From: Candidatus Coatesbacteria bacterium RBG_13_66_14
GTDB lineage: Bacteria > RBG-13-66-14
Direction of reading: 5' to 3'
NCBI GenBank assembly: GCA_001774505.1
Contig: MFAF01000016.1
Coordinates: forward strand, 1 to 19,675
DNA: 19,675 bases
The position numbers and the translations under genes are program-made. Under the pieces are notes generated by a model. It searched no databases, was not told where the DNA came from, and was given only the letters and a program-made list of their open reading frames with translations. How positions within the stretch are numbered: the first letter of the stretch is position 1; each line of letters begins with the position of its first letter. Shown piece by piece: positions 1-18,467 of this stretch.

Positions 1-88
1 CAAGAAGACGCACCAGGGCAAGCTGGAGCTCACCAAGTACTGCCCGTGGGACCGTGAGCGGACGGTTCACCGCGAGGCCAAACCCTAG
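1..88 (+). CDS. rpmG: 50S ribosomal protein L33, C-terminal part
   Basis: The last 28 codons of L33, a small protein of the large ribosomal subunit near the E site, are read from base 2 to the TAG at 86-88. The visible residues include KLELTKYCPWDRERTVHREAK, the typical L33 C-terminus. In zinc-type L33 the second metal pair is CxxC (CPWC); here it is CPWD, so only the first cysteine of that pair is present and zinc binding is probably lost or altered. The N-terminal half lies outside the window, so the first cysteine pair cannot be judged. The order rpmG, tRNA-Trp, secE, nusG is the common bacterial arrangement, usually preceded by tuf. Confidence 0.93.
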   Translation, partial: KKTHQGKLELTKYCPWDRERTVHREAKP

Positions 89-184
89 CCCGCTCCCGGC
101 CCCGCCGCGGGTCGCGGTCAGCCGTCGGCGCGCCGACCGCCGCGGATGGTGCCGGGTCGTCCGACTGAAGCCGTCGTAAAAGAT

Positions 185-260
185 AGGCCAGTAGCTCTAA
201 TGGTAGAGCGGCGGACTCCAAATCCGCAAGTTGGGGGTTCGAGTCCCTCCTGGCCTGCCA
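185..260 (+). tRNA. tRNA-Trp (anticodon CCA)
   Basis: A full cloverleaf can be drawn. The acceptor stem 185-191 pairs with 250-256 over 7 bp, and the D stem GCTC 194-197 pairs with GAGC 206-209. The anticodon stem GCGGA 211-215 pairs with TCCGC 223-227 around the loop CTCCAAA, giving anticodon CCA at 218-220. The T stem 233-237 pairs with 245-249 (one G-U) around loop TTCGAGT. The discriminator base is G257, as in bacterial tRNA-Trp, and the CCA end (258-260) is encoded. The gene lies between rpmG and secE and is probably processed from the same transcript. Confidence 0.98.
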
Positions 261-308
261 CTCCGGACGCCGCCGATCGAGGTGGGTGTCCCCGCGCCCG
301 AGAGAGAT

Positions 309-500
309 ATGTTTGACAGGATAAAAAGGTTCATCCGCGAGACGAGGGTCGAGCTCTCCAAGGTCACCTGGCCCACGCGGCGGGAGGTCTTCTCCTCCAC
401 CCTGATCATCATCGCCATGAGCGCCTTTCTGGCCGTGCTCATCGGGGTGTTCGATTTCGGGATGTCCAAGCTCATAGACTGGATCCTGAGCCAACGCTGA
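309..500 (+). CDS. secE: preprotein translocase subunit SecE
   Basis: This is the small essential subunit of the SecYEG channel in the inner membrane, which clamps SecY. The 63-residue product is the single-membrane-span form of SecE. The amphipathic stretch FIRETRVELSKVTWPTRRE (about residues 8-26) carries the family signature around KVTWP. It is followed by one hydrophobic span (about 30-50, TLIIIAMSAFLAVLIGVF). The ATG at 309 is preceded by GAGAG. The frame stays open further upstream, but that would run into the tRNA, so 309 is the sensible start. The stop codon is 6 bases before nusG, the usual secE-nusG pairing. Confidence 0.95.
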   Translation: MFDRIKRFIRETRVELSKVTWPTRREVFSSTLIIIAMSAFLAVLIGVFDFGMSKLIDWILSQR

Positions 501-506
501 GCTGAT

Positions 507-1172
507 ATGACCGACGAGACCGAAAGACCGATCGAGGGGGACACCGCGCTCGAGGCGACCGAAGAGGCCGCCGTCGAGACCGGTCCGCGCACGCACACCG
601 CCGAGGGCAAGAAGCTCTTCTGGTACGCGGTTTACGTGTACTCGGGCCACGAGAAGAAGGTGCTGGGCAACCTGCGGCGCAGGATAGAGCTCTCCGACAT
701 CACCCGCCTCTTCGGAGAGGTCGTGGTGCCCTCGGAGGACGTGCTCGTCCAGCGTTCCGGTCGCAGCGCGAAGACGACGCGCCCCTACTTCCCGGGCTAC
801 GTCATCTTCCAGATGGTCGGCCGGGACCACGAGCTGGAGAAGGCCGACGACCGAGACTTCATCGAGGTGACCAACCTGGTCATCAGCACGCCGGGCGTGC
901 GGGGTTTCGTGGGCGGACGACGCGATCCCGCCCCCCTGGATTCGGACGAGGTGACGCGCATCCTCCACACCGAGGAGTCGAAGACCGAGCGGATCAAGGA
1001 CGTCCCCTTCTCCTCGGGCGACCAGGTGCGGATCACCGACGGGCCCTTCGCCAACTTCGACGGAATCGTCGAGGAAGTCATGGTGGACCGCCACAAGGTC
1101 CACGTAGCCGTCACGGTTTTCGGCCGGTCCACGCAGATCGAGATAGACATCGCCCACCTCGCAAAGACGTAG
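507..1172 (+). CDS. nusG: transcription termination/antitermination factor NusG
   Basis: NusG binds RNA polymerase across the DNA cleft and links it to Rho or to ribosomal protein S10. The 221-residue product has an acidic, probably disordered N-terminal extension of about 35 residues. The NGN domain follows (about 37-150: WYAVYVYSGHEKKVLGNLRRRI, then YFPGYVIFQM and VISTPGVRGFVGG). A KOW domain closes the protein (about 165-221: FSSGDQVRITDGPFANFDGIVEE). The family is usually about 175-200 residues, so the extension explains the extra length. The start is the ATG 6 bases after secE. The two genes are surely cotranscribed. Confidence 0.97.
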   Translation: MTDETERPIEGDTALEATEEAAVETGPRTHTAEGKKLFWYAVYVYSGHEKKVLGNLRRRIELSDITRLFGEVVVPSEDVLVQRSGRSAKTTRPYFPGYVIFQMVGRDHELEKADDRDFIEVTNLVISTPGVRGFVGGRRDPAPLDSDEVTRILHTEESKTERIKDVPFSSGDQVRITDGPFANFDGIVEEVMVDRHKVHVAVTVFGRSTQIEIDIAHLAKT

Positions 1173-1192
1173 GCTGGCCGTTGAAATTCTTA

Positions 1193-1272
1193 GGGGGTGT
1201 GTCTGGCATCCCCCAGCCGCCGGGGGCATCCCCGACGGGTCTCCGGGACGGCGTCTCTCGCGCCGCCGCCGG
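1193..1272 (+). promoter_or_regulatory. structured leader upstream of rplK, with alternative pairings
   Basis: The 163-base nusG-rplK gap contains several stems. GGGGGTG (1193-1199) can pair with CATCCCC at 1207-1213, with one G-U and a 7-nt loop. An identical CATCCCC at 1227-1233 is a second possible partner, so two mutually exclusive folds can be drawn. A further hairpin, CGGCG 1249-1253 with CGCCG 1261-1265, is flanked by CCGG on both sides (1243-1246 and 1269-1272). In E. coli, L1 represses the L11-L1 operon by binding a leader here. That this leader does the same is inference; no L1-site consensus was matched base by base. Confidence 0.4.
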
Positions 1273-1335
1273 GGCAAACGGGCTCGGACCATGGGGGACG
1301 CCCCGGGGTCGGGTCGAAACCTCAAGTGAAAAGGC

Positions 1336-1764
1336 ATGGCTAAGAAAAAGGTTCTGGCGGTGATCAAGCTCCAGTGTCCCGCCGGCGCGGCCACTCCGGC
1401 GCCGCCGGTCGGACCGGCGTTGGGCCAGTACGGCATCAACATCGGCGAGTTCTGCAAGGTCTTCAACTCCCAGACCGCCGATCAGGCCGGCCTGGTGATC
1501 CCCGCGTTGATCACCATCTACGCCGACCGGAGCTTCACCTTCGAGCTCAAGACCCCCCCCGCGGCCGTCTTGATCAAAAAATACGTGATGCTGGCCAAGG
1601 GTTCGGGCGAGCCGAACCGTGAGAAGGTGGGATCGCTCACCCAGGCCCAGCTTCGCAAGATCGCCGAGATCAAGATGCCCGACAGCAACTGCCACACTAT
1701 CGAGGCCTGCATGGAGATGGTGGCGGGTACGGCGCGGTCCATGGGGGTGACGATCGAGGGGTGA
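1336..1764 (+). CDS. rplK: 50S ribosomal protein L11
   Basis: L11 forms the base of the ribosomal stalk, binding 23S rRNA in the GTPase-associated centre. The 142 residues match the family length. The N-terminal domain has [43 protein letters not shown], with the conserved proline-rich [10 protein letters not shown] segment. The C-terminal RNA-binding domain ends [33 protein letters not shown]. Cysteines at two places (QCPAG, SNCHT) replace residues more often A/G or D in other L11 proteins, which looks harmless. The ATG at 1336 is preceded closely by AAAAGG. The gene is followed by rplA, the usual L11-L1 pair. Confidence 0.98.
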
Positions 1765-1772
1765 TTCCCCTT

Positions 1773-1800
1773 CGGGCGCGTACGGCGCGTACACCGCCCG
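1773..1800 (+). promoter_or_regulatory. hairpin between rplK and rplA
   Basis: CGGGCG (1773-1778) pairs with CGCCCG (1795-1800), and inside it GTAC 1780-1783 can pair with GTAC 1789-1792. The loop region also holds a tandem direct copy of GGCGCGTAC (1775-1783 and 1784-1792). There is no T-tract after it, so it is not an ordinary intrinsic terminator. It could tune translation of rplA or be a processing site; this is inference. Confidence 0.4.
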
Positions 1801-1856
1801 GGCCGAGACGACGATGCCGCGGACCCGACCCCTCGGAGTCCGCTCGAGGAGATCCA

Positions 1857-2561
1857 ATGCCCATCGGCAAGAGGATGCGGGAGATGCGGGGGAAGGTTCC
1901 CGAGGAACCTATCCTTCTACGGGACGCCCTGGCGCTGGTCAAACAGATGGCGGTCGAGAAGTTCGACGCCACCTGTGACATGGCGATCCGGTTGGGCGTT
2001 GACCCGCGCAAGGCCGAGGAGAACATCCGCGGTTCCTGCCCGGCTCCGGCCGGGTTGGGGCGCAAGGTCACGGTCCTGGCTTTCGTCGGCGGCGAGAAGC
2101 TGCAGGAGGCCAAGGACGCCGGCGCCGACATCATCGGCGACGAGGAGATCATAGAGAAAATCCAGAACGGCTGGCTCGAGTTCGACAAGGTCGTCGCCAC
2201 GCCGGATCAGATGAAATCTCTGGCCAAGCTGGGGCGGGTCCTGGGCCCGAAGAAGCTGATGCCCTCCCCCAAGGACGGCACGGTGTCCTTCGAGATAAGC
2301 CAGGCCATCGCTCTATTGAAAACCGGCCAGATAAACTTCCGCGTGGACAAGGCCGGCATAGTGCACGCCCAGGTCGGCAAGGTCTCCTTCGACGTGGACG
2401 CGCTCTACCGCAACGCGATGAGTCTGATGGAGACGCTCGTCCGCCTGCGGCCGGCATCGGTCAAGGGCCGGTACATAAAGAGTATCCACGTCTCGAGCAC
2501 CATGGGGCCCAGCGTGAAGGTAGACCCGAAGGTCGTCGTGGACGAGACACGCGTGGCTTAA
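1857..2561 (+). CDS. rplA: 50S ribosomal protein L1
   Basis: L1 forms the L1 stalk that moves deacylated tRNA out of the E site, and in many bacteria it represses its own operon. The 234 residues match the family. Recognisable blocks are DMAIRLGVDPRKAEENIRG (about 43-61), GADIIGDEEIIEKIQNGWLEFDKVVATPDQM, GRVLGPKKLMPSPKDGTV and the C-terminal RYIKSIHVSSTMGPSVKVD. The usual LPHGTGK segment reads APAGLGRK here, a local divergence. The frame is open upstream to a GTG overlapping the rplK stop, but AGGAGA lies just before the ATG at 1857 and the protein then starts where L1 normally does. The gap from rplK is 92 bases. Confidence 0.96.
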   Translation: MPIGKRMREMRGKVPEEPILLRDALALVKQMAVEKFDATCDMAIRLGVDPRKAEENIRGSCPAPAGLGRKVTVLAFVGGEKLQEAKDAGADIIGDEEIIEKIQNGWLEFDKVVATPDQMKSLAKLGRVLGPKKLMPSPKDGTVSFEISQAIALLKTGQINFRVDKAGIVHAQVGKVSFDVDALYRNAMSLMETLVRLRPASVKGRYIKSIHVSSTMGPSVKVDPKVVVDETRVA

Positions 2562-2580
2562 AACAAGGTTTGGCAGAGGC

Positions 2581-2644
2581 GTAGGGGCGGGGCTTAAGCG
2601 CCGGCGGGTGACCGCAGAGGACTCGTCCTACGGGTCGCCCCTAC
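2581..2644 (+). promoter_or_regulatory. candidate structured leader of the rplJ-rplL unit
   Basis: A perfect 9-bp stem, GTAGGGGCG (2581-2589) with CGCCCCTAC (2636-2644), closes a region holding smaller hairpins. One is GCGG-GTGA-CCGC (2604-2615), with a GNRA-type tetraloop. Another is AGGA-CTCG-TCCT (2618-2629). A third possible stem uses GGC 2591-2593 with GCC 2600-2602. The place, directly upstream of rplJ, is where L10 or L10-L12 complexes bind the leader in other bacteria. The outer arms could instead be a dispersed genomic repeat that happens to sit here. Fold and role are inferred. Confidence 0.4.
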
Positions 2645-2666
2645 ACCATCCAAATGAGGAGTGCAG

Positions 2667-3182
2667 GTGACCCGCGAGGAGAAGAGAACCGTCGTTGCCG
2701 AGCTGACCCAGACGCTCTCGGCGGCCGACTGCGCCCTCTTCGTCAACATGATCGGCCAGACCGTGGCCGAGACGACGGAGCTGCGGAGGCGGGTGCGCGG
2801 CAGCGACTCAAGTTTGCGACAGGTCAAGAACACGTTGACCAGGCTGGCCCTGACCGAGCTCGGGCGCGAGGCGGCCCTTCACCTCCTGGACGGACCCACG
2901 GCGTTGGCCACGACGGCGCACCCCGTCGAGCTGTCCCGGGCGCTGGTCGCTTTCACCAAGGATTACGAGGACAAGCTCCAGATCCGGGGCGGCTGGCTCT
3001 TCGACAAGATACTCGACTCCCAGGGTGTCGTGGAGCTGTCCAAGTGCCCGCCCATGCCCGAGATGCGCGCCAGGACCCTGGGGCTCTTTACGGCGCCCAT
3101 GGCGAATTTCCTCAGCCTTTTGAGCCAGGTTCCCGCCAAGTTCGTGCGCGTGCTCGCGGCCAAGGCCGCCCGGGAGGGTTAA
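2667..3182 (+). CDS. rplJ: 50S ribosomal protein L10
   Basis: L10 anchors L7/L12 dimers to the ribosomal stalk base beside L11. The start chosen is GTG at 2667, five bases after AGGAG. A GTG two codons upstream (2661) overlaps that ribosome-binding site and is less likely. From 2667 the protein is 171 residues and begins TREEKRTVVAELTQTL, as L10 proteins do. Family features are AETTELRRRVRGSDSSLRQVKNTLTRLAL (about 35-63) and a C-terminal helix PAKFVRVLAAKAAREG, where L7/L12 N-terminal domains dock. The gene is followed, after an unusual 174-base gap with tandem repeats, by rplL. Confidence 0.95.
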   Translation: MTREEKRTVVAELTQTLSAADCALFVNMIGQTVAETTELRRRVRGSDSSLRQVKNTLTRLALTELGREAALHLLDGPTALATTAHPVELSRALVAFTKDYEDKLQIRGGWLFDKILDSQGVVELSKCPPMPEMRARTLGLFTAPMANFLSLLSQVPAKFVRVLAAKAAREG

Positions 3183-3230
3183 AGGGACGAAGTTGCGCCC
3201 TGGTTGAGATCGTGCCGGATGGTGAAAAAC

Positions 3231-3330
3231 GAAGTAACGCGAAGCGAAACGAAGTGACGCGAAGCGAAACGAAGTAACGCGAAGCGAAACGAAGTAACGC
3301 GAAGCGAAACGAAGTGACTCGAAGCGAAAC
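3231..3330 (+). repeat. five tandem copies of a 20-bp unit upstream of rplL
   Basis: The unit GAAGTAACGCGAAGCGAAAC occurs head to tail at 3231, 3251, 3271, 3291 and 3311. Copies 2 and 5 have GTG for GTA at the same place, and copy 5 also has CTC for CGC; otherwise the copies are identical. The array ends 26 bases before the rplL ATG. Its last bases form AAGCG-AAA-CGCTT followed by TTATTTT (3322-3341), a weak terminator-like hairpin. The array is purine-rich and has no sensible reading frame of its own, since it also reads as low-complexity peptide on the other strand. Confidence 0.97.
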
Positions 3331-3356
3331 GCTTTTATTTTGCGAAGGAGCGAAAG

Positions 3357-3734
3357 ATGAAGAAAGAGGAAATCAAAGAGGCCCTGGGCAAGATGACCGT
3401 CGTTGAGCTTGCCGAGCTGGTCAAGGAGCTCGAACAGGAGTGGGGCGTCACCGCCGCCGCTCCCGTCGCCGTTGCGGCCGCTTCGGGCGCCGCGGCCGGC
3501 GCGGCCGACACCGAGGAGGAGAAGACCGAGTTCAACGTCATCCTCTCCAGCTTCGGCGACAAGAAGATCCAGGTCATCAAGGAGATTCGGGCGATAACCG
3601 GCCTCGGTCTCCAGGCGGCCAAGGAGCTCGTGGAGGGCGTACCCTCGACGGTCAAGGAGGGTGTCGAGAAGGAAGAGGCCGTCAAGATCAAGGAACAGAT
3701 CGAGGGTGCCGGGGGCATCGTCGAGATCAAGTAA
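3357..3734 (+). CDS. rplL: 50S ribosomal protein L7/L12
   Basis: This is the multi-copy stalk protein that recruits and activates translation GTPases. The 125-residue product has the standard layout. An N-terminal dimerisation helix (about 1-33, [29 protein letters not shown]) is followed by an alanine-rich hinge (about 34-51, [18 protein letters not shown]). The C-terminal factor-binding domain (about 56-125) contains [40 protein letters not shown]. The ATG follows a GAAGGAG ribosome-binding site. The strong site and the A-rich repeat upstream fit the need to make several L7/L12 per L10, but that link is inference. Confidence 0.98.
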
Positions 3735-3747
3735 CGGTCGGAGGTCG

Positions 3748-3773
3748 GGCGCGCCCGGTTCTTCGGGCGCGCC
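3748..3773 (+). terminator. strong hairpin after rplL (terminator or attenuator)
   Basis: GGCGCGCCCG (3748-3757) pairs perfectly with CGGGCGCGCC (3764-3773) around the loop GTTCTT. It lies 14 bases after the rplL stop. Only a short pyrimidine stretch (TTCT) follows, so termination is likely partial. In E. coli the same place holds an attenuator and RNase III site that lowers rpoBC expression relative to rplJL; an equivalent role is inferred. Confidence 0.65.
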
Positions 3774-3821
3774 TTCTGGCCGTTGCATGCCTTATTTTTG
3801 AACGCAAGAGTTTATAAAACC

Positions 3822-3849
3822 TTCACTTATAATTTCAGGCACGGATAAT
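3822..3849 (+). promoter_or_regulatory. possible upstream promoter in the rplL-rpoB gap
   Basis: TTCACT (3822-3827), a 16-bp spacer and GATAAT (3844-3849) form a fair sigma-70 type promoter inside an AT-rich island that contrasts sharply with its surroundings. A second TATAAT at 3828-3833 lacks a well-placed -35 box. Confidence 0.35.
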
Positions 3850-3854
3850 GCTAA

Positions 3855-3888
3855 AAATCTGGTCAAACGGACCAGATTTGTGTATAAT
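3855..3888 (+). promoter_or_regulatory. rpoB promoter with an inverted repeat spanning its -35 region
   Basis: The -10 box is a perfect TATAAT at 3883-3888. TGGTCA (3860-3865), 17 bp upstream, is a 4-of-6 match to the -35 consensus. AAATCTGGTC (3855-3864) and GACCAGATTT (3870-3879) form a perfect 10-bp inverted repeat with a 5-base centre, covering the -35 and most of the spacer. Such placement fits an operator at which a dimeric regulator would block polymerase. If transcribed from the upstream promoter, it would also form a stem-loop. Transcription from 3883-3888 would start near 3895, leaving a leader of about 420 nt. Confidence 0.65.
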
Positions 3889-4094
3889 ACACCGCTTGTG
3901 CGGAAGGGGAATCCCGACTAGGGCCCGCGAACCGAGCGCAGAGATCTATGCCCCCGGCGAAACTCCGGTAATGTTTCGGCACGAACACGGCTGATGGTAA
4001 AAGCGGGCCGATTGGGGATTTATGCTTAACGGGGGATGGCCGGCGAGCCATGCCACCGCCTTGGGTCGAATCCATCGGGCTGACTGAACACCGC

Positions 4095-4136
4095 CAGGCC
4101 CCGGGACGTGCGACGCAAGCCGCATCCGGGGCTCTG
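4095..4136 (+). promoter_or_regulatory. strong stem-loop in the rpoB leader
   Basis: GCCCCGG (4098-4104) pairs with CCGGGGC (4126-4132). It is extended outward by CAG/CTG (4095-4097 and 4134-4136, one bulged T) and inward by GTGCG/CGCAT (4108-4112 and 4121-4125, one G-U) around an 8-base loop. A smaller hairpin, ACAGGG/CCCTGT, follows at 4167-4188. No T-tract follows either, so these look like leader structure and not terminators. The rest of the 3735-4314 gap shows no gene. Confidence 0.45.
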
Positions 4137-4218
4137 GGTTTACGCCCGCCTTCCGTGCGCCTTCCTACAGGGTCCGAGTAGTCCCTGTCCCTCACCCGCG
4201 CTCCACCAGTGGTTACAA

Positions 4219-4299
4219 ACCGAGCGAACCGAGCGAAGCGAGCTACGCCCCCGGCGAACCGAGCTATGCGAAGCAAACCGAGCTACGCCTCTAGCGAAT
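4219..4299 (+). repeat. degenerate ~20-bp repeats directly upstream of rpoB
   Basis: CGAGCT recurs at 4239, 4260 and 4279 (steps of 21 and 19 bases), each followed by TAYGC and a purine-rich tail such as GCGAACC or GAAGCAAACC. CCGAGCGAACCGAGCGAAGC precedes them. A related piece (TATGCCCCCGGCGAAAC) occurs earlier at about 3947-3963. The middle copy, CGAGCTATGCGAAGCAAAC, closely resembles the unit upstream of rplL, so both arrays probably belong to one repeat family. The array ends about 16 bases before the rpoB ATG. Confidence 0.7.
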
Positions 4300-4314
4300 A
4301 ACTTGGGAGAGCCC

Positions 4315-7300
4315 ATGCCCGAGAAGACCCCGGCCCGTGCGACCGACGGTAAGTCTGCGTCCAAAGGGTCCCCCTCGACCGTAGGCGCAGAGCGACCGAA
4401 GGGAAAAGCTTACCACGGAAAAAAGGGTAAGTACCCACGCACCCACCGCACATCCTACGCCAAGCTCCCCATCGCCATGGAGCTGCCCAACCTTTTGCAG
4501 GTGCAGCGCGACAGCTTCAACAACTTCCTGCAGCAGGGCGTCCCGGCGTCCAAACGCTTCCGTCAGGGCCTGCAGTACGCCTTCGAGCGCGTGTTCCCCA
4601 TCGAGGATCCCTCCGGCGTCTTCCGCCTCGAGTTCGTGCGCTACAAGCTCGACCTGCCCAAGTACGAGGTCGAGGAGTGCAAGGACCGGGACATGACCTA
4701 CGGGGCTCCACTGAAGGTCACCTTCCGCCTCGACGTGTACTCGGTTGACCGCAAACGCAAAGAGGACCGCCAGCTCATTGACAAGCGGGAGGAGACGCTC
4801 TACCTGGGCGAGCTGCCGATGATGACCGACTCCGGCACGTTCATCATCAACGGCGCGGAGCGGGTCGTGGTCAGCCAGCTCCACCGCTCACCCGGCGTCT
4901 TCTTCAAGGAGGACCAGCAGCCCGGGGGACGCAAGCTTTACTCCTCCAGGATCATCCCCGTCCGCGGCTCGTGGCTGGACTTCTCCATAGACGCCAACGA
5001 CGTGATGTACCTCTCCATTGACCGCAAGCGCAAGATGCTCATCACCACCTTCCTGCGGGCGCTGGGCTACGCGTCGAACGCGGAAATCCTGGCGATTTAC
5101 GCCTCGGGCGACCCCATCCCCATCAGGGACTCCAAGCGGATCGTCGGTGGCGCCCTGGCCACCAAAATCTTCGATCCCCAATCCAAGAACCCCGACGACG
5201 TGCTGTTCGAGTACGGGACGCGGATTGACGAAGATGTCTACCGGACCCTGGCCGAGGTGGGGGTCCGCCACGTCCGTCTGCTGCCCGACCTGGTGCCGAT
5301 CACCGACAGCGCGCGGCTCCTGGGAGCCATCTCCCTCGAGGACGTCATTGACATGAGCTCCGGCGAGCTCATGGTCGAGGCCGACCGCGAGATCACCCCG
5401 GAGATATTCACCCAGCTCGCCGATGCGGGCATCGAGGCGGTAAGGGTCATCCCCGAGCCGGACACCATTTGGTTCTCCGTCATCCGCAACACCCTGGAGA
5501 AGGACTCCATGCCCTCCAAGGTGGAGTCGGCCCTGCGCGTATACACCCTGCTGCGCCCCGGGGAGCCGCCCAACACCGAGGCGGCGGTGAAGTTTTTCAA
5601 CACCCTGTTCTTCAACGTGCGCCGCTACGACCTGGGCAACGTGGGCCGCAAGAAGCTCAACGACAAGCTGAAGATGAGCCTGCCCCTGGAAGAGCACCGC
5701 CTCGACCGGGACGACATCATCGAGACCTGCCGCTACCTGTTGAAGCTGCGGGGCGGGGATTCGTCCGCATCCACGGACGACATTGACCACCTGGGGAACC
5801 GGATAGTGCTCAGCGTGGGCGAGCTCCTGGAGGACGTATGCCACGTGGGCATCGCCCGCCTGGAGCGCGTGGCCCGAGACCGCATGGCCGTCCAGGAACC
5901 GGGCCGGTGCATGCCCAGTGACCTCATCAACTCCAAGCCGCTCACGGGGGCCATAAAGGAGTTCTTCGGCTCCTCGGCCCTGTCGCAGTTCATGGACCAG
6001 GTCAATCCGCTTTCAGAGCTGACTCACAAGAGGCGTGTTTCGGCTCTGGGCCCCGGCGGCCTCTCGCGCGACCGCGCCACCTTCGAGGTGCGCGACGTCC
6101 ACTACACCCACTACGGGCGCCTGTGCCCCATCGAGACCCCGGAGGGGCCGAACATCGGCTTGATCAGCTCCCTTTCCACCTACGCCCGCATCAACTCCTT
6201 CGGCCTCATCGAGACCCCCTACCGGCGCGTGGTGAACGGGGATGTGGGCAACGAGATAGAGTACCTCTCGGCGGACGAGGAGGAGAACCTGATCGTCGCC
6301 CAGGCCAACGTGAAGGTGGACAAGGAGGGGCGGATCACGGACAGCCTGGTCCTCGCCCGTTTCCAGAGCGAGTTCATCCGCGTCAAGCCCACCGAGGTCA
6401 CCTACATGGACGTGAGCCCGAAGCAGGTGATCAGCATCTCCACCTCCCTCATCCCCTTCCTGGAGCACGACGACGCCAACCGGGCCCTGATGGGCTCCAA
6501 CATGCAGCGCCAGGCGGTGCCCCTCATGACCACCGAGCCCCCATTGGTCGGCACCGGCGTGGAGGAGATCGCCGCCCGGGACTCGGGGGTCCTGATCATT
6601 GCCCGGCGACCCGGAGCCGTGGCCTACGTCTGTGCCACCCGGATCGAGGTCGAGACCAAGGACGTGGACGAGTACACCGGACTTTTCGAGCGCGATGTGT
6701 ACGAGCTAAAGCGCTACGTGCGCTCGAACCAGGACACCTGCATCAACCAGAAGCCCATCGTATCCACGGGCCAGAAGGTGAAGGTGGGGGACGTGCTGGC
6801 CGACGGCCAGGCCACGGCCGGCGGTGAGCTGGGCCTGGGGTGCAACGTCCTGGTAGCCTTCATCCCCTGGTACGGCTACAACTACGAGGACGCCATCATC
6901 ATCTCCGAGGAGCTGGTGCAGAACGACAACTTCACCTCCATCCACATCGAGGAGTACGAGATAGAGTGCCGGGAGACCAACCTCGGCCGCGAGGAGATCA
7001 CCGCGGACATCCCCAACGTCTCGGCCGACAGCCTGCGCAACCTGGACGAAGGGGGGATCATCCGCGTCGGCGCCAGCGTGAAGCCCGGCGACATCCTCGT
7101 CGGCAAGGTCGCCCCCAAGGGCGAGACCGAGCTGACCCCCGAGGAGAGCCTGCTGCGGGCCATCTTCGGCGAGAAGGCCAAGGACGTCCGCGACGCCTCC
7201 CTCAAGGCGCCTCCCGGGCTGGAGGGCAAGATAATCGGCGTCAAGACCTTCTCCCGAAAATCCAAAGAACGCTCGGACCACCTCACCGAGAACGAGCTCG

Positions 7301-8319
7301 ACTCCATCGAGGATTACAAACGGTACAAGGAGGAGGAGCTGGCGCGCCTGGAGAAGGAGGAGGGGTACGCCCTCAAGCGGCTCCTCGTCGAGAAGTGGCC
7401 CAAGATGAAGGCCACCGAGGCCCGCGCCAAGGCCCAGGACATCGTGGACGAGCTCGTGGAGGTGGACGCCGACTTCGCCGAGCGTATCGTGGACACCCTG
7501 GACCGGTACGAGGAGATGAAGGCCAGGGTGGACCTGCAGACAAAGATAAAGATAGACCGCATCGAGCGCGGCGACGAGCTTCCCCCGGGCATCTACTCCA
7601 TCGTCAAGGTGTACGTGGCACGCAAGAGCCGCCTCTCCGTGGGCGACAAGATGGCCGGGCGCCACGGGAACAAGGGCGTCGTATCCATCGTCGTGCCCCA
7701 GGAGGACATGCCCTACATGCCCGACGGGACGCCCATTCAGATGGTGCTGAACCCCCTGGGGGTGCCCTCCCGCATGAACGTGGGGCAAATCATGGAGACG
7801 CACCTCGGATGGGCGGCGCACGAGCTCGGACGCCACGTGGCCACGCCGGTATTCGAGGGGGCCACCGAGGAAGAGGTGAAGGAGCTGCTCCGGGAGGCCG
7901 GGCTGCCCGAGAACGGCAAGAGCGTGCTCTACGACGGAAAGAACGGGGAGCCCTTCGACTCCCCCGTCACCGTGGGCTACATGTACATGATGAAGCTTTC
8001 CCACCTGGCCGAGGAGAAGATACACGCGCGTTCCATCGGCCCGTACTCCCTCGTCACCCAGCAGCCCCTGGGCGGCCGGGCGCAGATGGGCGGGCAGCGG
8101 TTCGGCGAGATGGAGGTCTGGGCCATCGAGGCCTACGGCGCAGCGCACACACTGCGGGAGCTTCTCACCGTCAAGTCCGACGACGTGCCGGGACGGTCGA
8201 AGATGTACGAGGCCATCGTCAAGGGCGAGAACACGCCCGAACCCGGCATACCCGAGAGCTTCAACGTGCTGCGGCGCGAGCTGATGGGACTCTGCCTGGA
8301 CATGCAACTGGAGGAGTGA
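4315..8319 (+). CDS. rpoB: DNA-directed RNA polymerase subunit beta
   Basis: The beta subunit forms one pincer of RNA polymerase and the rifampicin pocket. The ATG at 4315 follows GGGAGA; the frame is open 69 codons further upstream, but that stretch is the repeat-bearing leader. The product is 1334 residues, with a basic low-complexity N-terminal tail of about 45 residues before [20 protein letters not shown]. The rifampicin cluster [31 protein letters not shown] is at 552-582, with D561, H571 and S576 in the wild-type state, so sensitivity is expected. [25 protein letters not shown] and [13 protein letters not shown] are intact. A charged insertion of roughly 100 residues (about 985-1085) is typical of Gram-negative-type beta subunits. 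The next gene is not rpoC. Confidence 0.98.
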
Positions 8320-8362
8320 CCCGCCGGGGACCCAGTGCGCCGTTCGGGATAGAGGATGAAGA

Positions 8363-9475
8363 GTGGATGCGGCACCCAACGCGACCGGCGAACTGGCGTC
8401 GAGGTTCGACCTACGACGCTGCACCCGGTGCATCTTTCCCGACAGCCTGCCGGGGATAGCATTTTCCGACGACGGGACGTGCAACCACTGCCGAACGTAC
8501 AAAGCGCCAGAAGTGCTCGGTGAGGATGAGCTGAGGAAAATAATCGAGGGGGTCCGGGGGAGGTTCGCCTTCGACTGCATCGTGCCGTTGAGCGGCGGGC
8601 GGGACAGCGCATACGTGCTGTACATGGCGAAACGACATTTCGGGCTGCGGACCCTGGCCGTCAACTTCGACAACGAGTTTCAGACCCCCCAGGCGAAGGC
8701 GAATATACTGGCGGCGTGCGGTATCCTGGACGTACCGCTCGTGACGTACCGTTCGCGGTGGGGCACCGGCAAAAAAACGGTGCACTACGCCATCCGGGCC
8801 GCGCTGGACGGCGGTATCCGTGCGATGGCTGACTGTTTCTGCAACGCATGCTCCTACGGATACCGGGCCTGCTGCTACATCGCCGCCGAGAAATTCAACG
8901 TACCCCTGATACTGTGGGGGGAATCCGCGGGCGAGTACACCCAACCCATGACCGACGAGCATCTGAGGTTGGGGCTGACCGCAAGGATTAGGAAGCAGTT
9001 CAGCGGTGCCGGCCTGTTATACCGGTTGAACCTGTACCGCCAGCGGCTCGAGTTTCCGGTCCGGGGGAATTTCTGGCGCAATCTGGCCCTGCTGGCCCCC
9101 AGGCTAAAACGCGCCGATACGCGGGAAATCGCCTTCTTCGACTACGTGCCCTGGAACCGGGACCTCCTCAAGCGAACGATAACCCGCGAACTGGGGTGGA
9201 AGAAGCCCGATGATTCGGTCTCGACCTGGCGTATAGACTGCAAGCTGGACCGTTTGGTCACGTTCTGCTACTACAACATCTTCGGGTGCAGCAAGCACTG
9301 CTTCGGGTACCACAACATGATAAACGACCGTCAGATGAGCCGGGAGAAGGCACTGGGACAAGAGCTGAGGGCCTGCTCGATCCCGGGCGCCGAGCTCAAG
9401 GAGCTGCTCGCGGGGGACATAGAATTGCGGCCCGACGAAGTAGAGCGGATAATCGGATTCTCCCGCAAACACTGA
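8363..9475 (+). CDS. PP-loop ATPase, N-acetyl sugar amidotransferase-like (WbpG/PseA type)
   Basis: This complete 370-residue gene sits between rpoB and rpoC on the same strand, 43 bases after rpoB, starting at GTG 8363 behind GAGGA. The N-terminus has a zinc-ribbon-like pair, RCTRC (C20, C23) and TCNHC (C40, C43), inside the pattern CxxCIFPDSxPGIxFxDDGTCNHC seen in sugar amidotransferases. The PP-loop SGGRDS is at 77-82, preceded by FDCIVPL, and binds ATP for adenylation. A further cysteine group (C158, C160, C163 in CFCNAC) and the motif VPLILWGESAGEY follow. WbpG/PseA relatives transfer ammonia to acetamido sugars of surface polysaccharides. No glutaminase or sugar genes lie nearby, so the substrate is unknown. 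By eye it is slightly less GC-rich than rpoB. It could also be another PP-loop enzyme such as a tRNA or metabolite modifier. Confidence 0.85.
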   Translation: MDAAPNATGELASRFDLRRCTRCIFPDSLPGIAFSDDGTCNHCRTYKAPEVLGEDELRKIIEGVRGRFAFDCIVPLSGGRDSAYVLYMAKRHFGLRTLAVNFDNEFQTPQAKANILAACGILDVPLVTYRSRWGTGKKTVHYAIRAALDGGIRAMADCFCNACSYGYRACCYIAAEKFNVPLILWGESAGEYTQPMTDEHLRLGLTARIRKQFSGAGLLYRLNLYRQRLEFPVRGNFWRNLALLAPRLKRADTREIAFFDYVPWNRDLLKRTITRELGWKKPDDSVSTWRIDCKLDRLVTFCYYNIFGCSKHCFGYHNMINDRQMSREKALGQELRACSIPGAELKELLAGDIELRPDEVERIIGFSRKH

Positions 9476-9626
9476 GGTCGGCTCGCACGGTCGAAGGTAT
9501 TACACGCGTTCGTTATTGAAATATAGTTCGGAGTCAAACGTATCCGATGGTAACAGAAGAGTTTAAAAAACATCAGGCGTCATCCCGCACACGGTTTCAA
9601 TCCCTCGTTCCCACCGAGGTTTATAG

Positions 9627-13856
<4,230 letters not shown>

Positions 13857-13950
13857 ATTTCGCGGGCCCGGGGATGGGGTGGACGTCCTGTTTGACTTTC
13901 TGCGCCGATGAGTCGGCCCGGGATTGACCGACCACGGGTCGGGGGACGGA

Positions 13951-14574
13951 ATGGATGAACACCGCGTGCTCCGGGCCGAGTTCGTCACCAGTGCGGCCTC
14001 GCCCGGCGGCATCCCGGAACCGGGGGTGCCGGAAATCGCGCTACTCGGCCGCTCCAACGTGGGCAAGTCCAGCCTCATCAACGCTCTGGTGGGCCGGAAA
14101 CGACTGGCCTACCCCAGCTCCATGCCGGGCAAGACCCGGCTCTTGAATTTTTACCGGGTCCGGGTGAGCGCGGGGCGGGGCGCTACCGATCTGTGCCTGG
14201 TTGACACGCCTGGCTACGGCTACGCCCGGGCGTCCGGGTCAGAGCGGGAGCGCTTCGATGAGCTGGCGTGCGCCTTATTGGCCCGTACCCGGCCGTCGCG
14301 CGCCGGCGCGGTGCAGATTGTGGACATCCGCCACCCCGGCCTGGAGAGCGACGTCGCCGCCCGGGAGTGGCTGGGGGCCCTGGGCGTCCCCGTCGCAGTG
14401 GCGGCGACCAAGGCCGACAAGCTTTCCCGCAACCGTCTCCGACAGGCCCTTGACGGACACGCCAGCGCGCTCGGGGTGATGCCCGTCCCCTTCTCCGCGG
14501 TCACGGGCGCGGGGCGCCGGGAGCTGTGGTCGGCGGTCCTGGAAATGCTCCGGCGCCACGGGGGGCTTGACTGA
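13951..14574 (+). CDS. engB: ribosome biogenesis GTP-binding protein EngB/YsxC
   Basis: This is an essential small GTPase for assembly of the 50S subunit. The 207-residue product shows all G motifs: G1 GRSNVGKSS (33-41), the PGKTR switch I region, G3 DTPGYGYA, G4 TKADKL and G5-like SAVTG. The ATG at 13951 gives the usual EngB N-terminus (xEFVTSAASPGGIPEPGVPEIALLGRSN); an in-frame TTG at 13924 would add nine unlikely residues. GGGGGA precedes the ATG. The gene follows rpoC by 94 bases, with no clear terminator seen between. Its stop codon overlaps the -35 box of the next gene's promoter. Confidence 0.95.
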   Translation: MDEHRVLRAEFVTSAASPGGIPEPGVPEIALLGRSNVGKSSLINALVGRKRLAYPSSMPGKTRLLNFYRVRVSAGRGATDLCLVDTPGYGYARASGSERERFDELACALLARTRPSRAGAVQIVDIRHPGLESDVAAREWLGALGVPVAVAATKADKLSRNRLRQALDGHASALGVMPVPFSAVTGAGRRELWSAVLEMLRRHGGLD

Positions 14575-14595
14575 GGGGCCGGGAAGTGCTACATT
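14567..14595 (+). promoter_or_regulatory. promoter for the beta-helix gene
   Basis: TTGACT (14567-14572) and TACATT (14590-14595) are separated by 17 bp, with GC just before the -10. The -35 box overlaps the last codons and stop of engB. Transcription would start near 14602, about 49 bases before the chosen ATG. Confidence 0.75.
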
Positions 14596-14650
14596 GATTG
14601 CGTTCTCCACAACCTGCTCGCCCCCGATGGGGTGAAGGGTGGTGTTCGTC

Positions 14651-15508
14651 ATGCCCAGAGCGTATTGGATCGTCCTCTTCGGGTTCGCCCTCGCGGGAGC
14701 GTCGGCCGGGTTCACGGCCATCCTCCAGGAAGACATCACCGAGGACACCGTTTGGGACATCTCCGGCTCCCCGTACGTGGTCTACGGCAACCTTTACGTC
14801 ACCAACGGGGCCACGCTGCGCATCGAGGACGGCGTCACCGTGCGCTTCGATAAAGTCAGCCACGACGGCGGCCGTTGGGACGGCGCCGAGATTATCGTCA
14901 TCCACGGCTCCCTGATCGCCGAGGGGACCCCCGGCTGGCCCATCGTCTTCACCTCCAACGAGCAGATACCGTTCCCCGGCGACTGGGGCGCCATCGTGGT
15001 CGAGGGCGACAACCCGGTGATCCTGGAGAACTGCCGCCTCGAGTACGCCAAAGAGGGCCTCCTTCTGTGGAACATGACCGTCAGCGCCTCCATGTCGTCG
15101 TCCGTAACCGGGCTCGAGATAACCAACTGCTCGGTCCACGGCATCGGCATAGTGGGCGGCACGCCGCCCGACATCTTCGGATGCACCATCGTGGGCAACG
15201 GCTCCGGGATGCCCTACCAGGGCGGGATCAACCTCATGGACTGCGCGGCCTCCATAAACCAGAACAACCTCTTCGACAACTATCCCTACGACCTGGTGAA
15301 CGATTCCATCTACAACATAGACGCCACCGAGAACTGGTGGGATTCCGTGGACGAGATGGAGATTGCCCAGAAAATCTTCGACTTCAACGATCGCAGCGTA
15401 CTGGGCGAGGTGAATTTCGTCCCCTTCCTGACCGAGCCCGCGGGGGAAGGCGGCGGCGTGACCTTCCAGACATGGGGCCTGATAAAGTCCGCCTACGAGG
15501 ATTACTGA
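14651..15508 (+). CDS. secreted right-handed beta-helix repeat protein
   Basis: This is a hypothetical exported protein of 285 residues. Residues 1-19 form a signal peptide (MPR, then a hydrophobic core AYWIVLFGFALAG) with an ASA cleavage site before G20. The mature part begins with the pattern seen at the start of parallel beta-helix proteins: DTVWDISGSPYVVYGNLYVTNGATLRIEDGVTVRF, then GSLIAEGTPGWPIVFTSN and GDWGAIVVEG. Rungs with short beta strands follow (ILENCRLEYA, LEITNCSVHGIGIVGG, IFGCTIVGNG, INQNNLFDN). It ends with NWWDS and VNFVPFLTEP, a common close of this fold. No catalytic residues of a sugar lyase are recognised, and no C-terminal sorting domain is seen. The ATG at 14651 is preceded by AAGGGTGG; two GTG codons a few residues upstream are alternative starts. 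Confidence 0.8.
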   Translation: MPRAYWIVLFGFALAGASAGFTAILQEDITEDTVWDISGSPYVVYGNLYVTNGATLRIEDGVTVRFDKVSHDGGRWDGAEIIVIHGSLIAEGTPGWPIVFTSNEQIPFPGDWGAIVVEGDNPVILENCRLEYAKEGLLLWNMTVSASMSSSVTGLEITNCSVHGIGIVGGTPPDIFGCTIVGNGSGMPYQGGINLMDCAASINQNNLFDNYPYDLVNDSIYNIDATENWWDSVDEMEIAQKIFDFNDRSVLGEVNFVPFLTEPAGEGGGVTFQTWGLIKSAYEDY

Positions 15509-15530
15509 TCCCCGGCTTCAAGTGTGTTCG

Positions 15531-15785
15531 AGGCGGTCCACCGGGCCGCCTTTTACATAAGAATGCGATTCACCGCCCGTTTTTTATATACGGCTACCGT
15601 CCACCGGGTGAGCCTTTTTTCTCGGAGAGGATTCAACGGGTCCCTTCGATCAATAAAGAACGGTCCACCGGGCTGCCTTTTTTTATCGCGGCTATCGCTG
15701 CTTCTATGACTGGCATAACATACGCCGTCGTTCGAGGCGGTCCACCGGGGGAGTTTTTTTTAAAGAGGATTCACCGGGCCGCCCG
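15531..15785 (+). repeat. array of ~7 terminator-like repeats, ~32-bp period
   Basis: A core like GGTCCACCGGGCnGCCTTTTTT recurs with its TYCA element at 15537, 15569, 15600, 15632, 15664, 15741 and 15770: four steps of 31-32 bases, then 77 and 29. Two versions tend to alternate, one with GTCCACC (copies 1, 3, 5, 6) and one with GATTCA (copies 2, 4, 7). The 20-mer GTTCGAGGCGGTCCACCGGG is identical at 15526 and 15730. Most copies end in a run of 4-8 T. This array fills most of the 15509-15901 gap; no gene is supported there. Confidence 0.85.
15532..15554 (+). terminator. intrinsic terminator after the beta-helix gene
   Basis: GGCGG-T-CC pairs with GG-CCGCC (one bulged T, loop ACCG) and is followed by TTTT. 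It lies 23 bases after the stop codon of the beta-helix gene and is the first copy of the repeat array. Confidence 0.65.
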
Positions 15786-15850
15786 TCTCGTCCCGGCCGT
15801 CGCCGTCTCCGCCGCCGCCGAGGCATCCGCCGGACCGTCCTTCTCATCCC

Positions 15851-15879
15851 TTGACAGCCGGCGCCGACCCCGCTACCAT
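15851..15879 (+). promoter_or_regulatory. promoter for the lipoprotein gene
   Basis: A perfect TTGACA (15851-15856), a 17-bp spacer and TACCAT (15874-15879), again preceded by GC. Transcription would start near 15886, only about 16 bases before the GTG start and just ahead of AAGGAGG, giving a very short leader. Confidence 0.8.
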
Positions 15880-15901
15880 ACCCTTGCGGATAAGGAGGAA
15901 T

Positions 15902-16483
15902 GTGCGCTCACGTTGGCCCATGGCAGTCGCGGCGACGATGCTCCTGGCGGCGTTCGGCGCGTGCGGGTCGGAGGAGCCGGAGGCGGTGCAAACGACGGAC
16001 ACGGTCGAGCCGGTCCTCGAGTTCAGCACCATGTACCTTCAGCCGGCCTTCGTCCTGTTGCGGGAGCGGACGGGGGAGTACGCCGACGGCATGGGTGCCC
16101 TCGCCGGGCTGGACGCGGAGCTCGCCGCCCACGGCGTCGCCCCGGCCGGGCCCCCCTTCATCCACTACCTCGGGAAGGGGGACGACGGTCGGGCTCGGTT
16201 CCAGGTCGGGGTGTGCGTATCGTCCGACGTCAGTCCCTGGGACGACCTCTCGGCCCAAAACCTGTCCGAGCGGCTCGTGGCCTACCTGGAGACCAGCGGG
16301 CCCTGGTCCGATTCCCGCGCCTGGGAGCACGAGGAGCTCGCCGACTGGGCCGAGAAGGCCGGGTTCGAGGTCACCGGCACCGCCTGCGACTACTTCCTGA
16401 ACTGGGGCACCGAGGGCCTGCCCGAGAGCCTCATGGCCGAGGTGACGCTGCCCATCGCCGTCCCCGAGGAGCCGGAGGAGTAA
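15902..16483 (+). CDS. putative lipoprotein with a GyrI-like effector-binding domain
   Basis: The 193-residue product starts at GTG 15902, just after AAGGAGG (spacing is short, 3 bases). Upstream in-frame codons include the promoter -35 box and are not used. The N-terminus RSRWPMAVAATMLLAAFGAC has a basic region, a hydrophobic core and a lipobox-like FGAC with C21, so it is probably anchored in a membrane. The rest follows the GyrI/AraC-effector pattern: PAFVLLRERTGEYADGMGALAGLDAELAAHG, PFIHYL, a second half beginning RLVAYLETSGPWSDSRAWEHEELADWAEKAGF, and an ending AEVTLPI that matches the usual acidic-residue-then-P close of that fold. GyrI-like domains bind small molecules or proteins in the cytoplasm; an exported one is unusual. 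Function unknown. Confidence 0.7.
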   Translation: MRSRWPMAVAATMLLAAFGACGSEEPEAVQTTDTVEPVLEFSTMYLQPAFVLLRERTGEYADGMGALAGLDAELAAHGVAPAGPPFIHYLGKGDDGRARFQVGVCVSSDVSPWDDLSAQNLSERLVAYLETSGPWSDSRAWEHEELADWAEKAGFEVTGTACDYFLNWGTEGLPESLMAEVTLPIAVPEEPEE

Positions 16484-16495
16484 CGGTCGGTCGGG

Positions 16496-16507
16496 ACGTC
16501 CGGACGT
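16496..16507. repeat. 12-bp perfect palindrome after the lipoprotein gene
   Basis: ACGTCCGGACGT reads the same on both strands, 13 bases after the stop codon. The half ACGTCCGG recurs at 16563-16570 inside the terminator stem. It could be a protein-binding site or part of the 3' end structure; nothing more can be said. Confidence 0.5.
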
Positions 16508-16560
16508 TTATTACGGTTTTCGGCAGCGTGCTTTCCGCATAATGAACCGCCAGGTTCTGA

Positions 16561-16587
16561 AGACGTCCGGTCCGGCGTCTTTTTTTT
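16561..16587 (+). terminator. intrinsic terminator after the lipoprotein gene
   Basis: AGACG pairs with CGTCT, with inner CC/GG pairs and one bulged T (16561-16580), followed directly by a run of eight T to 16587. It separates the lipoprotein gene from the SucD-like operon. Confidence 0.85.
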
Positions 16588-16685
16588 AGGGGCGATCTCG
16601 CTGCACGGGAGCGGGTGTAAGGTCCGTCGAATCCACCACGTAGCGGGGACCCGCAGTATCAGAATCCCTGCACGGAAGGGGCCGG

Positions 16686-16714
16686 TTGACTTAAACGCCC
16701 GCCTCTGCTACTTT
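16686..16714 (+). promoter_or_regulatory. promoter of the SucD-like/citryl-CoA lyase operon
   Basis: TTGACT (16686-16691), a 17-bp spacer and TACTTT (16709-16714), preceded by GC as in the other promoters here. Transcription would start near 16721. A small stem, CCCA/TGGG around 16728-16738, overlaps the edge of the ribosome-binding site. Confidence 0.75.
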
Positions 16715-16746
16715 CACCGCCGTCAATCCCAACTTGGGGGAACCTC

Positions 16747-17661
16747 TTGGCCATCCTCGTGGACGAGAACTCCCGCGTCCTGGTCCAGGGCGTAACCGGC
16801 AAGACCGGCCGCTTCCACGCCTCCCGGATGCTCTCCTACGGAACCCGCGTCGTCGCCGGAATCTCCCCGGGCAAGGGCGGCCAGGAGGTCGAGGGGGTGC
16901 CGGTCTTCGACACCGTGGCCGAGGCGGTGGAGGCCACCGGGGCCGACGTGAGCGTCCTGTTCCTCCCGGCCCGCTACGTCCTGGACTCCGCCGTGGAGGC
17001 CTGCCGCGCGGGCTTGAGGCTGGTCGTCGTCGTCCCCGAGCACATCCCGGTCCACGACATGCTCCGCCTGCGCGAGGAGAGCCAGAAGAGCGGCACCCAG
17101 GTCCTCGGGGGCAACACGGCCGGGGTCATCTCCCCGGGCCGCTGCAACGTGGGTATCATCCCGCCGCTGGCCTTCGAGCGGGGCCGCGTCGGCACCCTTT
17201 CACGCTCCGGCTCCATCACCTACTACATCGCCGACACGCTGACCCGGTCGGGCTACGGGGAATCCACCTGCGTGGGGATGGGCGGCGATCCGGTGCTGGG
17301 CTCGACCTACAACGACCTGCTTCCGCTCTTCGACGCCGACGACGGGACCGACGCCGTGGTCATCACCGGCGAGATCGGCGGGATTTACGAGGAGCTTTCC
17401 GCCCCGGCCATCCGGGCGATGAAAAAGCCGGTGGTGGCCATGATCGGCGGCGTTTTCGCCCCGCTGGGAAAGCGCATGGGCCACGCCGGGGCCATCGTCG
17501 AGGGGCGGATGGGCACGGCCGAGAGCAAGTTCGCCGCCCTCGAGGGCGCCGGGGCCAGCATCGCCAAGACTTTCGAGGACATCCCCCGCATCCTGGGCGA
17601 GCTCGGAATCCGGCCCGCCAACGAGCCCCACGTCATCGAGGGCGGCCGCGTCGGCGGCTAG
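16747..17661 (+). CDS. SucD-like acyl-CoA synthetase (NDP-forming) alpha subunit
   Basis: This 304-residue subunit matches succinyl-CoA ligase alpha in length and layout. The CoA-binding Rossmann domain begins AILVDENSRVLVQGVTGKTGRFHASRML and continues GTRVVAGISPGKGG. The ligase domain has GTLSRSGSITYYIADTL, STCVGMGGDPVLGSTYNDLLPLF and ITGEIGG. The phosphohistidine is H246 in GKRMGHAGAI. The CoA-site motif NCPGVI of SucD reads NTAGVI, so the cysteine is absent. The start is TTG after GGGGGAA, giving the standard N-terminus. With the citryl-CoA lyase 29 bases downstream it may be the alpha subunit of a citryl-CoA synthetase (CcsB-like) rather than succinyl-CoA ligase. The ATP-grasp partner is not in view. 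An alpha subunit of plain succinyl-CoA ligase remains possible. Confidence 0.88.
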   Translation: MAILVDENSRVLVQGVTGKTGRFHASRMLSYGTRVVAGISPGKGGQEVEGVPVFDTVAEAVEATGADVSVLFLPARYVLDSAVEACRAGLRLVVVVPEHIPVHDMLRLREESQKSGTQVLGGNTAGVISPGRCNVGIIPPLAFERGRVGTLSRSGSITYYIADTLTRSGYGESTCVGMGGDPVLGSTYNDLLPLFDADDGTDAVVITGEIGGIYEELSAPAIRAMKKPVVAMIGGVFAPLGKRMGHAGAIVEGRMGTAESKFAALEGAGASIAKTFEDIPRILGELGIRPANEPHVIEGGRVGG

Positions 17662-17690
17662 AGTTTTTTTCAACACCTATCGGAGGTCGC

Positions 17691-18467
17691 GTGGGTGAAA
17701 AGTGGATCACCAAAATCACCCGGGTGGAGCCGAACCGGCTGACCCTGCGGGGATACGCCCTCGACGAGCTCATCGGGGCGGTCCCCTTCCCCTCGGCGGC
17801 CTTCCTGGCCGTGATGGGCCGGCTGCCCGTCGAGGCGGAAGCGCGGCTCTTCGACGCCCTTTTAACCAGCTCCGTGGACCACGGCGTCACGCCGCCCTCG
17901 ACCCAGGTGGCCCGCACCATGGCCTCCACGGGGGTCCCCCTGGTGCAGGCGGCGGCGGGCGGGATCGCCACCATCTCCGACTACCACGGCGGCGCCATCG
18001 AGAACGCCATGCGCGCCTTCTCCGGCGTTCCCGGGGACGCCGGCGAAATCGTGGAGTCGGCCAAGGCGGCGGTGAAGGCGGCCCGCGCCTCCAAGCGCGT
18101 CCTCTTCGGCTTCGGACACCGCTACCACAACAAGGACCCGCGCACCCAGCGCCTTCTGTCCCTGGCCCGCGAGCTCGGCTTCCACGGCCGCTACTGCGCC
18201 TACGCCCTCGCCCTGGCCGAGGCGCTCTCCGAGGACGTGGGGCACAAGATGCCCCTGAACGTGGACGGAGCCATCGCGGCCATCCTCTGCGAGCTGGGCT
18301 TCCCACCCGAGGTGGGTAACCTCGTCTTCGCCCTGGCCCGCCTCCCCGGCCTCATCGCTCACGTCCACGAGGAGCGCACGGCCTTCAAGCCCATGCGCAA
18401 GATAGTCGTCGAGGATTGCGAGTACGGGGGCCCGGTCGGCAAGACCGCCATCCCCGGCGATGGGTAG
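17691..18467 (+). CDS. ccl: citryl-CoA lyase (citrate synthase superfamily)
   Basis: The product of 258 residues is far shorter than citrate synthase (about 370-430) and matches stand-alone citryl-CoA lyase, which splits citryl-CoA into acetyl-CoA and oxaloacetate. It starts at GTG behind GGAGGT. The opening GEKWITKITRVEPNRLTLRGYALDELIG is typical of lyases of this type and of the C-terminal domain of ATP-citrate lyase. The superfamily catalytic residues are retained: H99 in YHGGA, H143 in GFGHRYHNKDPR and D192 in LNVDGA. It lies directly after the SucD-like gene, so the pair resembles a split ATP-citrate lyase large subunit. It could cleave another citrate-like CoA ester. Confidence 0.88.
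   Translation: MGEKWITKITRVEPNRLTLRGYALDELIGAVPFPSAAFLAVMGRLPVEAEARLFDALLTSSVDHGVTPPSTQVARTMASTGVPLVQAAAGGIATISDYHGGAIENAMRAFSGVPGDAGEIVESAKAAVKAARASKRVLFGFGHRYHNKDPRTQRLLSLARELGFHGRYCAYALALAEALSEDVGHKMPLNVDGAIAAILCELGFPPEVGNLVFALARLPGLIAHVHEERTAFKPMRKIVVEDCEYGGPVGKTAIPGDG

Follow-up and report, generated by a model that had tools for sequence, protein, structure and literature searches.

A NASAT-like PP-loop gene of patchy occurrence between rpoB and rpoC in a genus of Coatesbacterota

The adjacency of rpoB and rpoC is among the steadiest of bacterial gene orders. Within a 19,675-base stretch of Candidatus Coatesbacteria bacterium RBG_13_66_14 (G000; bases 1-19,675 of the 34.7-kb contig G000:C16, hereafter the window) this order is opened by an intact 370-codon gene that encodes a PP-loop protein of the NASAT type. 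On balance, we favour the explanation that the gene arrived between rpoB and rpoC by horizontal exchange and is now a passenger under selection, expressed together with the polymerase genes. In this view, two species of one genus gained an accessory NASAT-like PP-loop gene in this interval, most likely because the segment between the two polymerase genes was exchanged horizontally, and both have kept it intact. For the enzyme, the most likely reaction is the activation by ATP of a carbonyl or carboxyl group in a sugar precursor, presumably that of a surface glycan; AMP and pyrophosphate would be released and nitrogen would be added from free ammonia or an unlinked glutaminase.

A first-pass annotation of the window had described an intact gene with gaps of 43 and 151 bases to its neighbours on the same strand, and these coordinates were reproduced: according to the list of open reading frames (ORFs) and the translation, the order on the + strand is rpoB (ending with TGA at 8319), the gene, and rpoC (ATG at 9627). 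The PP-loop SGGRDS and the paired cysteines are indeed present in the translated gene. As also described before, there is no + strand terminator-like site within 8000-9900; the two such sites found there are on the - strand (1.6 expected). It had been stated that the gene must share the polymerase transcript. This is too strong; co-transcription is what we infer. A promoter-like site on the + strand, the sole one within 8000-9900 (0.4 expected), precedes rpoC. Carriage by a transposon was considered and dropped because the gene borders have no inverted repeats, the sole inverted-repeat pair within 8200-9800 being located inside the gene. In agreement with the earlier description, no transposase was seen among the window ORFs scanned, which are a part of all window ORFs.

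The only close homologue found is encoded on a 3,233-base contig (DAOVLG010000291.1, the same sequence as G003:C375) of Candidatus Coatesbacteria CSMAG_1439 (G003), which is placed in the same genus. There, the gene (1714-2829) has the same slot between the end of rpoB (1644) and the start of rpoC (3005), and it is 69-70% identical to the copy in the window. A protein search in 61 genomes (E 1e-10) gave matches in 7 and a profile search in 290 genomes (E 1e-25) gave matches in 27, and in both searches G000 and G003 were the only ones among the 14 genomes of the phylum. The TIGR03573 model matched three of these 14, but the third (G009) had only two weak partial matches of 33.5 and 25 bits and was excluded from the gene count. 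Inspection of the rpoB-rpoC interval in related genomes, which the first-pass annotation had advised, thus revealed the same insertion in G003 and no gene in G001 and G002. In these two relatives, the former with a completeness estimate of 100, no homologue was detected at the thresholds used. Without the gene, the rpoB-rpoC gap is 81 (G001), 181 (G002), 91 (G004) and 64 (G006) bases long. The 181-base gap of G002 (L030:8440-8620) contains, by eye, repeated GTAGGACGA-type stretches that are perhaps a small mobile repeat. In a tree of rpoB/rpoC DNA, G000 groups with G001, followed by G002 and then G003; support (UFBoot) for G000 with G001 was 99 in the set that included G003 and 88 in a longer set without it. 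Between G000 and G001, identity amounts to 93.8% for rpoB and to 94.6% over the initial 3,000 bases of rpoC. A patchy gene for which a near relative has the empty allele is a natural before-and-after case of the opening of a conserved operon.

Comparison of the two copies gave 0.208 nonsynonymous (pN) and 0.693 synonymous differences per site (pS), equivalent to a dN/dS of about 0.13 with pS near saturation. Because pN is far below pS and both copies are full-length open frames, the gene is functional and under purifying selection. Its pS ranks second highest among 40 reciprocal-best ORF pairs of G000 and G003, and among these pairs the lowest GC content at third codon positions (GC3) is that of the G003 copy; 63 pairs were found and 23 were removed by a filter (pS > 1.5 pN) aimed at wrong-frame ORFs, some of which may still be among the 40 kept. 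The last 20 gap bases before rpoC are identical in G001 and G002 and should therefore be ancestral, whereas G000 matches them at 6 of 20 positions. Since the presence of the gene conflicts with the tree, the gap tail of G000 differs and both pS and GC3 are outlying, horizontal gain is favoured. Purifying selection together with the outlying composition and synonymous divergence leads us to regard the gene as cargo acquired next to the polymerase genes rather than as part of a function linked to the polymerase. The proposal that it was "captured recently" stands only in part: capture is favoured by the patchiness (2 of 14) and the odd composition of the G003 copy, but recency is uncertain, as the copies are far diverged.

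Several observations speak against a transfer. The orthologue set behind the ranks of pS and GC3 is small and filtered, and the G003 assembly is fragmentary with 7% contamination. The 43-base 5′ gap of G000 and the 69-base gap of G003 have no detectable similarity (265 of 500 shuffles scored as high), and the 3′ gaps are not detectably homologous (71 of 500 shuffles as good). The gap tail of G000 weakly resembles that of G001 (1 of 500 shuffles), which could reflect partial vertical descent. The rpoB and rpoC flanks of G000 are without a G003-like tract near the junction, and no donor was found, the best-scoring relative beyond the genus (G058) being 33% identical. With these points in mind, vertical inheritance is a possible, if less probable, history: the ancestor of the genus would have received the gene in this interval, and G001 and G002 would each have lost it independently. 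Both copies in one slot, the slight likeness of the gap tails of G000 and G001, the lack of a foreign tract at either edge and other kept orthologue pairs that are as low as 64-75% identical would all fit this. However, the rpoB/rpoC tree then requires two losses, the 20 identical bases before rpoC are common to G001 and G002 but not found in G000, and pS and GC3 remain outlying. We therefore prefer, without certainty, the view that the gene came from a donor outside the sample, possibly on two occasions, to the view that it was ancestral and lost twice.

Other routes of arrival were tried and rejected. A 10-base match (CACCGAGGTT) before rpoC in G000 and G003 had hinted at a shared insertion cassette, but the shuffles do not support homology of the gaps. 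For a recombination tract from a G003-like donor, eight sites of the 0+3 pattern were found in the last 1200 bases of rpoB, none of them less than 250 bases from the junction, and there were none in the first 225 bases of rpoC. Phage records gave no match at E 1e-5, no relative on viral contigs was confirmed by a pattern scan whose reach is limited to close relatives, and padloc gave no match to a defence gene.

How unusual is an occupied rpoB-rpoC slot? A query of joined rpoB tail and rpoC head matched 71 of 75 genomes, all with both ends. Seven gave one merged match, 56 gave pairs with gaps of up to 300 bases, five had larger gaps and in three the ends were on different contigs. Adjacency, which had been called near-universal, is thus the rule in this sample, but eight of the 71 genomes depart from a gap of up to 300 bases, one due to a contig edge only. 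The larger gaps are filled by the gene described here in G000 and G003. G026:C34 (L166:2840-4858) has a 672-aa EF-G-like gene that overlaps the end of rpoB, and G073:C1 (L167:2982-3707) has a 241-aa ORF with a LAGLIDADG-like domain; in G025 no gene could be made out among the ORFs of the gap. As for the ends on different contigs, rpoC of G005 is cut at the contig start, whereas in G007 (L036, L065) and G009 (L066, L067), members of other families of the same phylum, rpoB and rpoC are fully apart, on separate contigs with other neighbours. In G139:C1 (L068, L069), outside the survey count, the two genes are about 29.6 kb apart on the same strand among the matches listed. For operons of the secE-rpoBC-str cluster, insertion followed by full disconnection has been described as the general pattern, with nrdHEF between rplL and rsmC in the rpoBC operon as one insertion (Brandis 2021, PMC8046335, as far as the available text goes). 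Both states are found in the phylum studied here, though in different families. The likeness to the published cases is that a small insertion breaks a conserved polymerase operon; the difference is that in the present case rpoB and rpoC themselves are split from each other, in a lineage outside the groups studied there. In a literature search limited to one collection, rpoB, rpoC and Coatesbacteria were not found together, and "between rpoB and rpoC" occurred, in the accessible text, only in the context of mycobacterial identification.

The sugar-modifying PP-loop family is the best match of the gene product, in line with one of the roles proposed at first. The protein matches the TIGR03573 (WbuX) model at 147.8 bits (cut-off 203.2) and the G003 copy at 168.5 bits; Pfam gave no family at E 0.001. 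The PP-loop SGGxDS of NASAT and TIGR03573 is present (S77-S82), as is the tetracysteine CxxC-Xn-[GN]xCxxC that defines the NASAT family (PMC10607449), here C20, C23, C40 and C43, and the predicted model of the window protein has the NASAT fold. In a tree of the relatives the window protein is not firmly placed (support of 28 at one deep node). From described NASATs (WbpG, WbuX and LpNASAT, 8wex) it differs in several respects: it is only 18% identical to 8wex, its gene is not part of a sugar cluster, no HisF-type gene was found in the genomes of its family and its cysteine triad has no counterpart in 8wex according to the profile alignment. A second group of relatives has a WbuX-like domain behind an N-terminal glutaminase domain, identified by Pfam (GATase_6/7) in L011, L042 and L043 and by tblastn in G056. 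These share the SGGRDS and TWR motifs with the window protein, and the three aligned are 25-26% identical to it, but the glutaminase domain sets them apart and the cysteine triad is missing. The arrangement was seen at L011:5128-7113, L042:7260-9074, L043:7152-9116 and L048, and for two of these four the annotations read glucosamine 6-phosphate synthetase and 7-cyano-7-deazaguanine synthase.

A HisH/HisF2-type ammonia partner is the usual, but not universal, companion of a NASAT. HisH/HisF-type genes adjoin the gene for 7 of the 33 proteins (many loci have only about 1.5 kb of flank) and a glutaminase domain is fused in four; the window protein has neither. This leaves free ammonia or an unlinked glutaminase as nitrogen source; GATase_6 proteins are present in all six genomes of the family (G000-G004 and G006). 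Suitable sugars are probably made in the family, because NeuB is present in all six genomes (in G000 as two contig-edge pieces), in some of them with sugar-enzyme neighbours. In G001, these are an epimerase, an aminotransferase, a UDP-glucose/GDP-mannose-type dehydrogenase and a radical SAM protein; such a dehydrogenase is near NeuB in G000 and G003, too. G001 has this gene set without the PP-loop gene. Eight of ten plasmid-borne relatives are in surface-sugar or polysaccharide clusters, and a glycosyltransferase gene adjoins the relative in G115 (in a set of ten stretches, L162 and L165 were covered by gene calling only and L161 by one scanned gene). A sugar role has to face contrary findings. 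The gene is outside any sugar cluster and scores under the TIGR03573 cut-off. PF00977 was found in none of the six family genomes (E 1e-5; 14 of 14 controls positive; G000 is 75.6% complete), which suggests that the family is without the usual histidine synthesis. The other two plasmid-borne relatives lie inside a peptide-synthetase gene and next to a carbamoyltransferase gene that has a transposase in its vicinity, the G279 relative adjoins recA, and the G058 relative is one gene from a secretion-sorting-domain protein.

The cysteine triad C160/C163/C293 raises another possibility for the function, compatible with either history. All three cysteines are present in 17 of the 33 proteins, a sample that was seeded with the window protein, none in 15 and one in G239, which was in neither group of the profile comparison; on the tree of the proteins the triad changed at least three times. 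In a profile alignment with eight NcsA/TtuA-like proteins (probability score 97.3; 97.5 with E 6.6e-12 in a repeat) the three residues pair with three cysteines, which were equated by motif, not by alignment, with Cys142, Cys145 and Cys233, the [4Fe-4S] ligands of MmNcsA (PMC10067955, in its available text). This suggests a metal or iron-sulphur (Fe-S) site at the active centre. The tRNA thiolases NcsA/TtuA (TIGR00269) and the window protein have N-terminal cysteines, a PP-loop and a CxxC with a distant cysteine in common. A possible, if less probable, function of the protein is therefore that of an Fe-S-dependent enzyme of sulphur transfer, or of another PP-loop enzyme that does not amidate, working like these thiolases with a [4Fe-4S] cluster on the triad. 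With the three columns masked the CxxC pairing stays but that of C293 is lost, and without realignment only residues 73-195 are aligned, with C293 outside. A profile of the 15 triad-less proteins also matches NcsA (97.4), with the positions of 160 and 163 being 7-8 residues off the CxxC. Since two of the seven HisH/HisF-linked relatives (G271, L149) have the triad, it is compatible with ammonia chemistry and alone not a sign of sulphur chemistry; in LpNASAT, the profile alignment puts no cysteine at these positions. Identity to the NcsA/TtuA-like proteins is 11% by profile alignment, the C-terminal zinc finger of NcsA/TtuA (two CxxC) is lacking (cysteines past C293 are 302, 309, 313 and 338), a TIGR00269 search of G000 gave 0 candidates at E 1e-10, and presence in 2 of 14 genomes ill suits a core tRNA modification. 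A combined view, likewise tentative, is that the NASAT-like proteins include an undescribed Fe-S subgroup (the 17 of 33) and, jointly, that the slot was subject to transfer: PP-loop sugar enzymes with [4Fe-4S] on C160/C163/C293 would bridge NASATs and NcsA/TtuA, and one such gene would have moved between species in the rpoB-rpoC slot, gaining polymerase-level expression. No report of an Fe-S NASAT was found in the accessible text of the collection mentioned above, and in PMC10607449 Fe-S terms occur in the references only. The triad is a testable prediction on metal use in a family whose one solved structure found reports only zinc.

We consider it improbable that a role in modifying RNA polymerase, tRNA or the transcript has kept the gene with rpoBC. 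The position in two species, the fold in common with tRNA thiolases and the location of the G279 relative, which follows recA on the same strand at a distance of 28 bases (L163:6198-8202), would be in accordance with such a coupling, but the gene was not found in the nearest relatives and in 12 of the 14 phylum genomes, and several relatives are in polysaccharide clusters, one beside the glycosyltransferase gene of G115. A lineage-wide coupling to polymerase synthesis, as once suggested, is unsupported because G001 and G002 have short rpoB-rpoC gaps and no homologue at the thresholds used. An assembly or binning artefact is very unlikely: both G000 (2.06 Mb, 152 contigs, 75.6% complete) and G003 (540 contigs, 88% complete) are fragmentary, but two diverged copies occupy one slot in two assemblies.

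The features of the locus are compiled in Table 1. The real start of rpoB is probably further downstream than listed, near 4440, where the TIGR02013 match begins.

Table 1 Positions of the features in and around the rpoB-rpoC interval of the window.
Feature	Position	Strand	Remarks
rpoB	4108..8319	+	ORF as listed; TIGR02013, 1740.7 bits, residues 112-1400
rpoB-to-gene gap, 43 bases	8320..8362	+	AGAGGA ribosome-binding-like stretch 8351-8356 ahead of GTG (by eye)
NASAT-like PP-loop gene, 370 aa, GTG start	8363..9475	+	
Zinc-type tetracysteine C20, C23, C40, C43	8420..8491	+	Family motif as in PMC10607449
PP-loop SGGRDS, residues 77-82	8591..8608	+	
C160 and C163, CxxC of the cysteine triad	8840..8851	+	Paired with NcsA/TtuA-like CxxC, cysteines masked or not
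C293, third cysteine of the triad (TWRIDC)	9239..9241	+	Pairs with third NcsA-type cysteine only unmasked and realigned
Gene-to-rpoC gap, 151 bases	9476..9626	+	Promoter-like site 9499-9527; CCGAGG stretch before rpoC ATG
rpoC	9627..13856	+	TIGR02386, 1736.2 bits

The genes for tRNA-Trp, nusG, L11, L1 and L7/L12 are located 5′ of rpoB in the window. Between the L1 and L7/L12 genes the longest ORF (2654-3277) is without a match in Pfam or NCBIfam, and a shorter frame (2661-3182) may be the true L10 gene. Past rpoC, the region 13924-19674 has ORFs for a YsxC-type GTPase, followed by citryl-CoA lyase-like, HD-domain and aconitase-family proteins.
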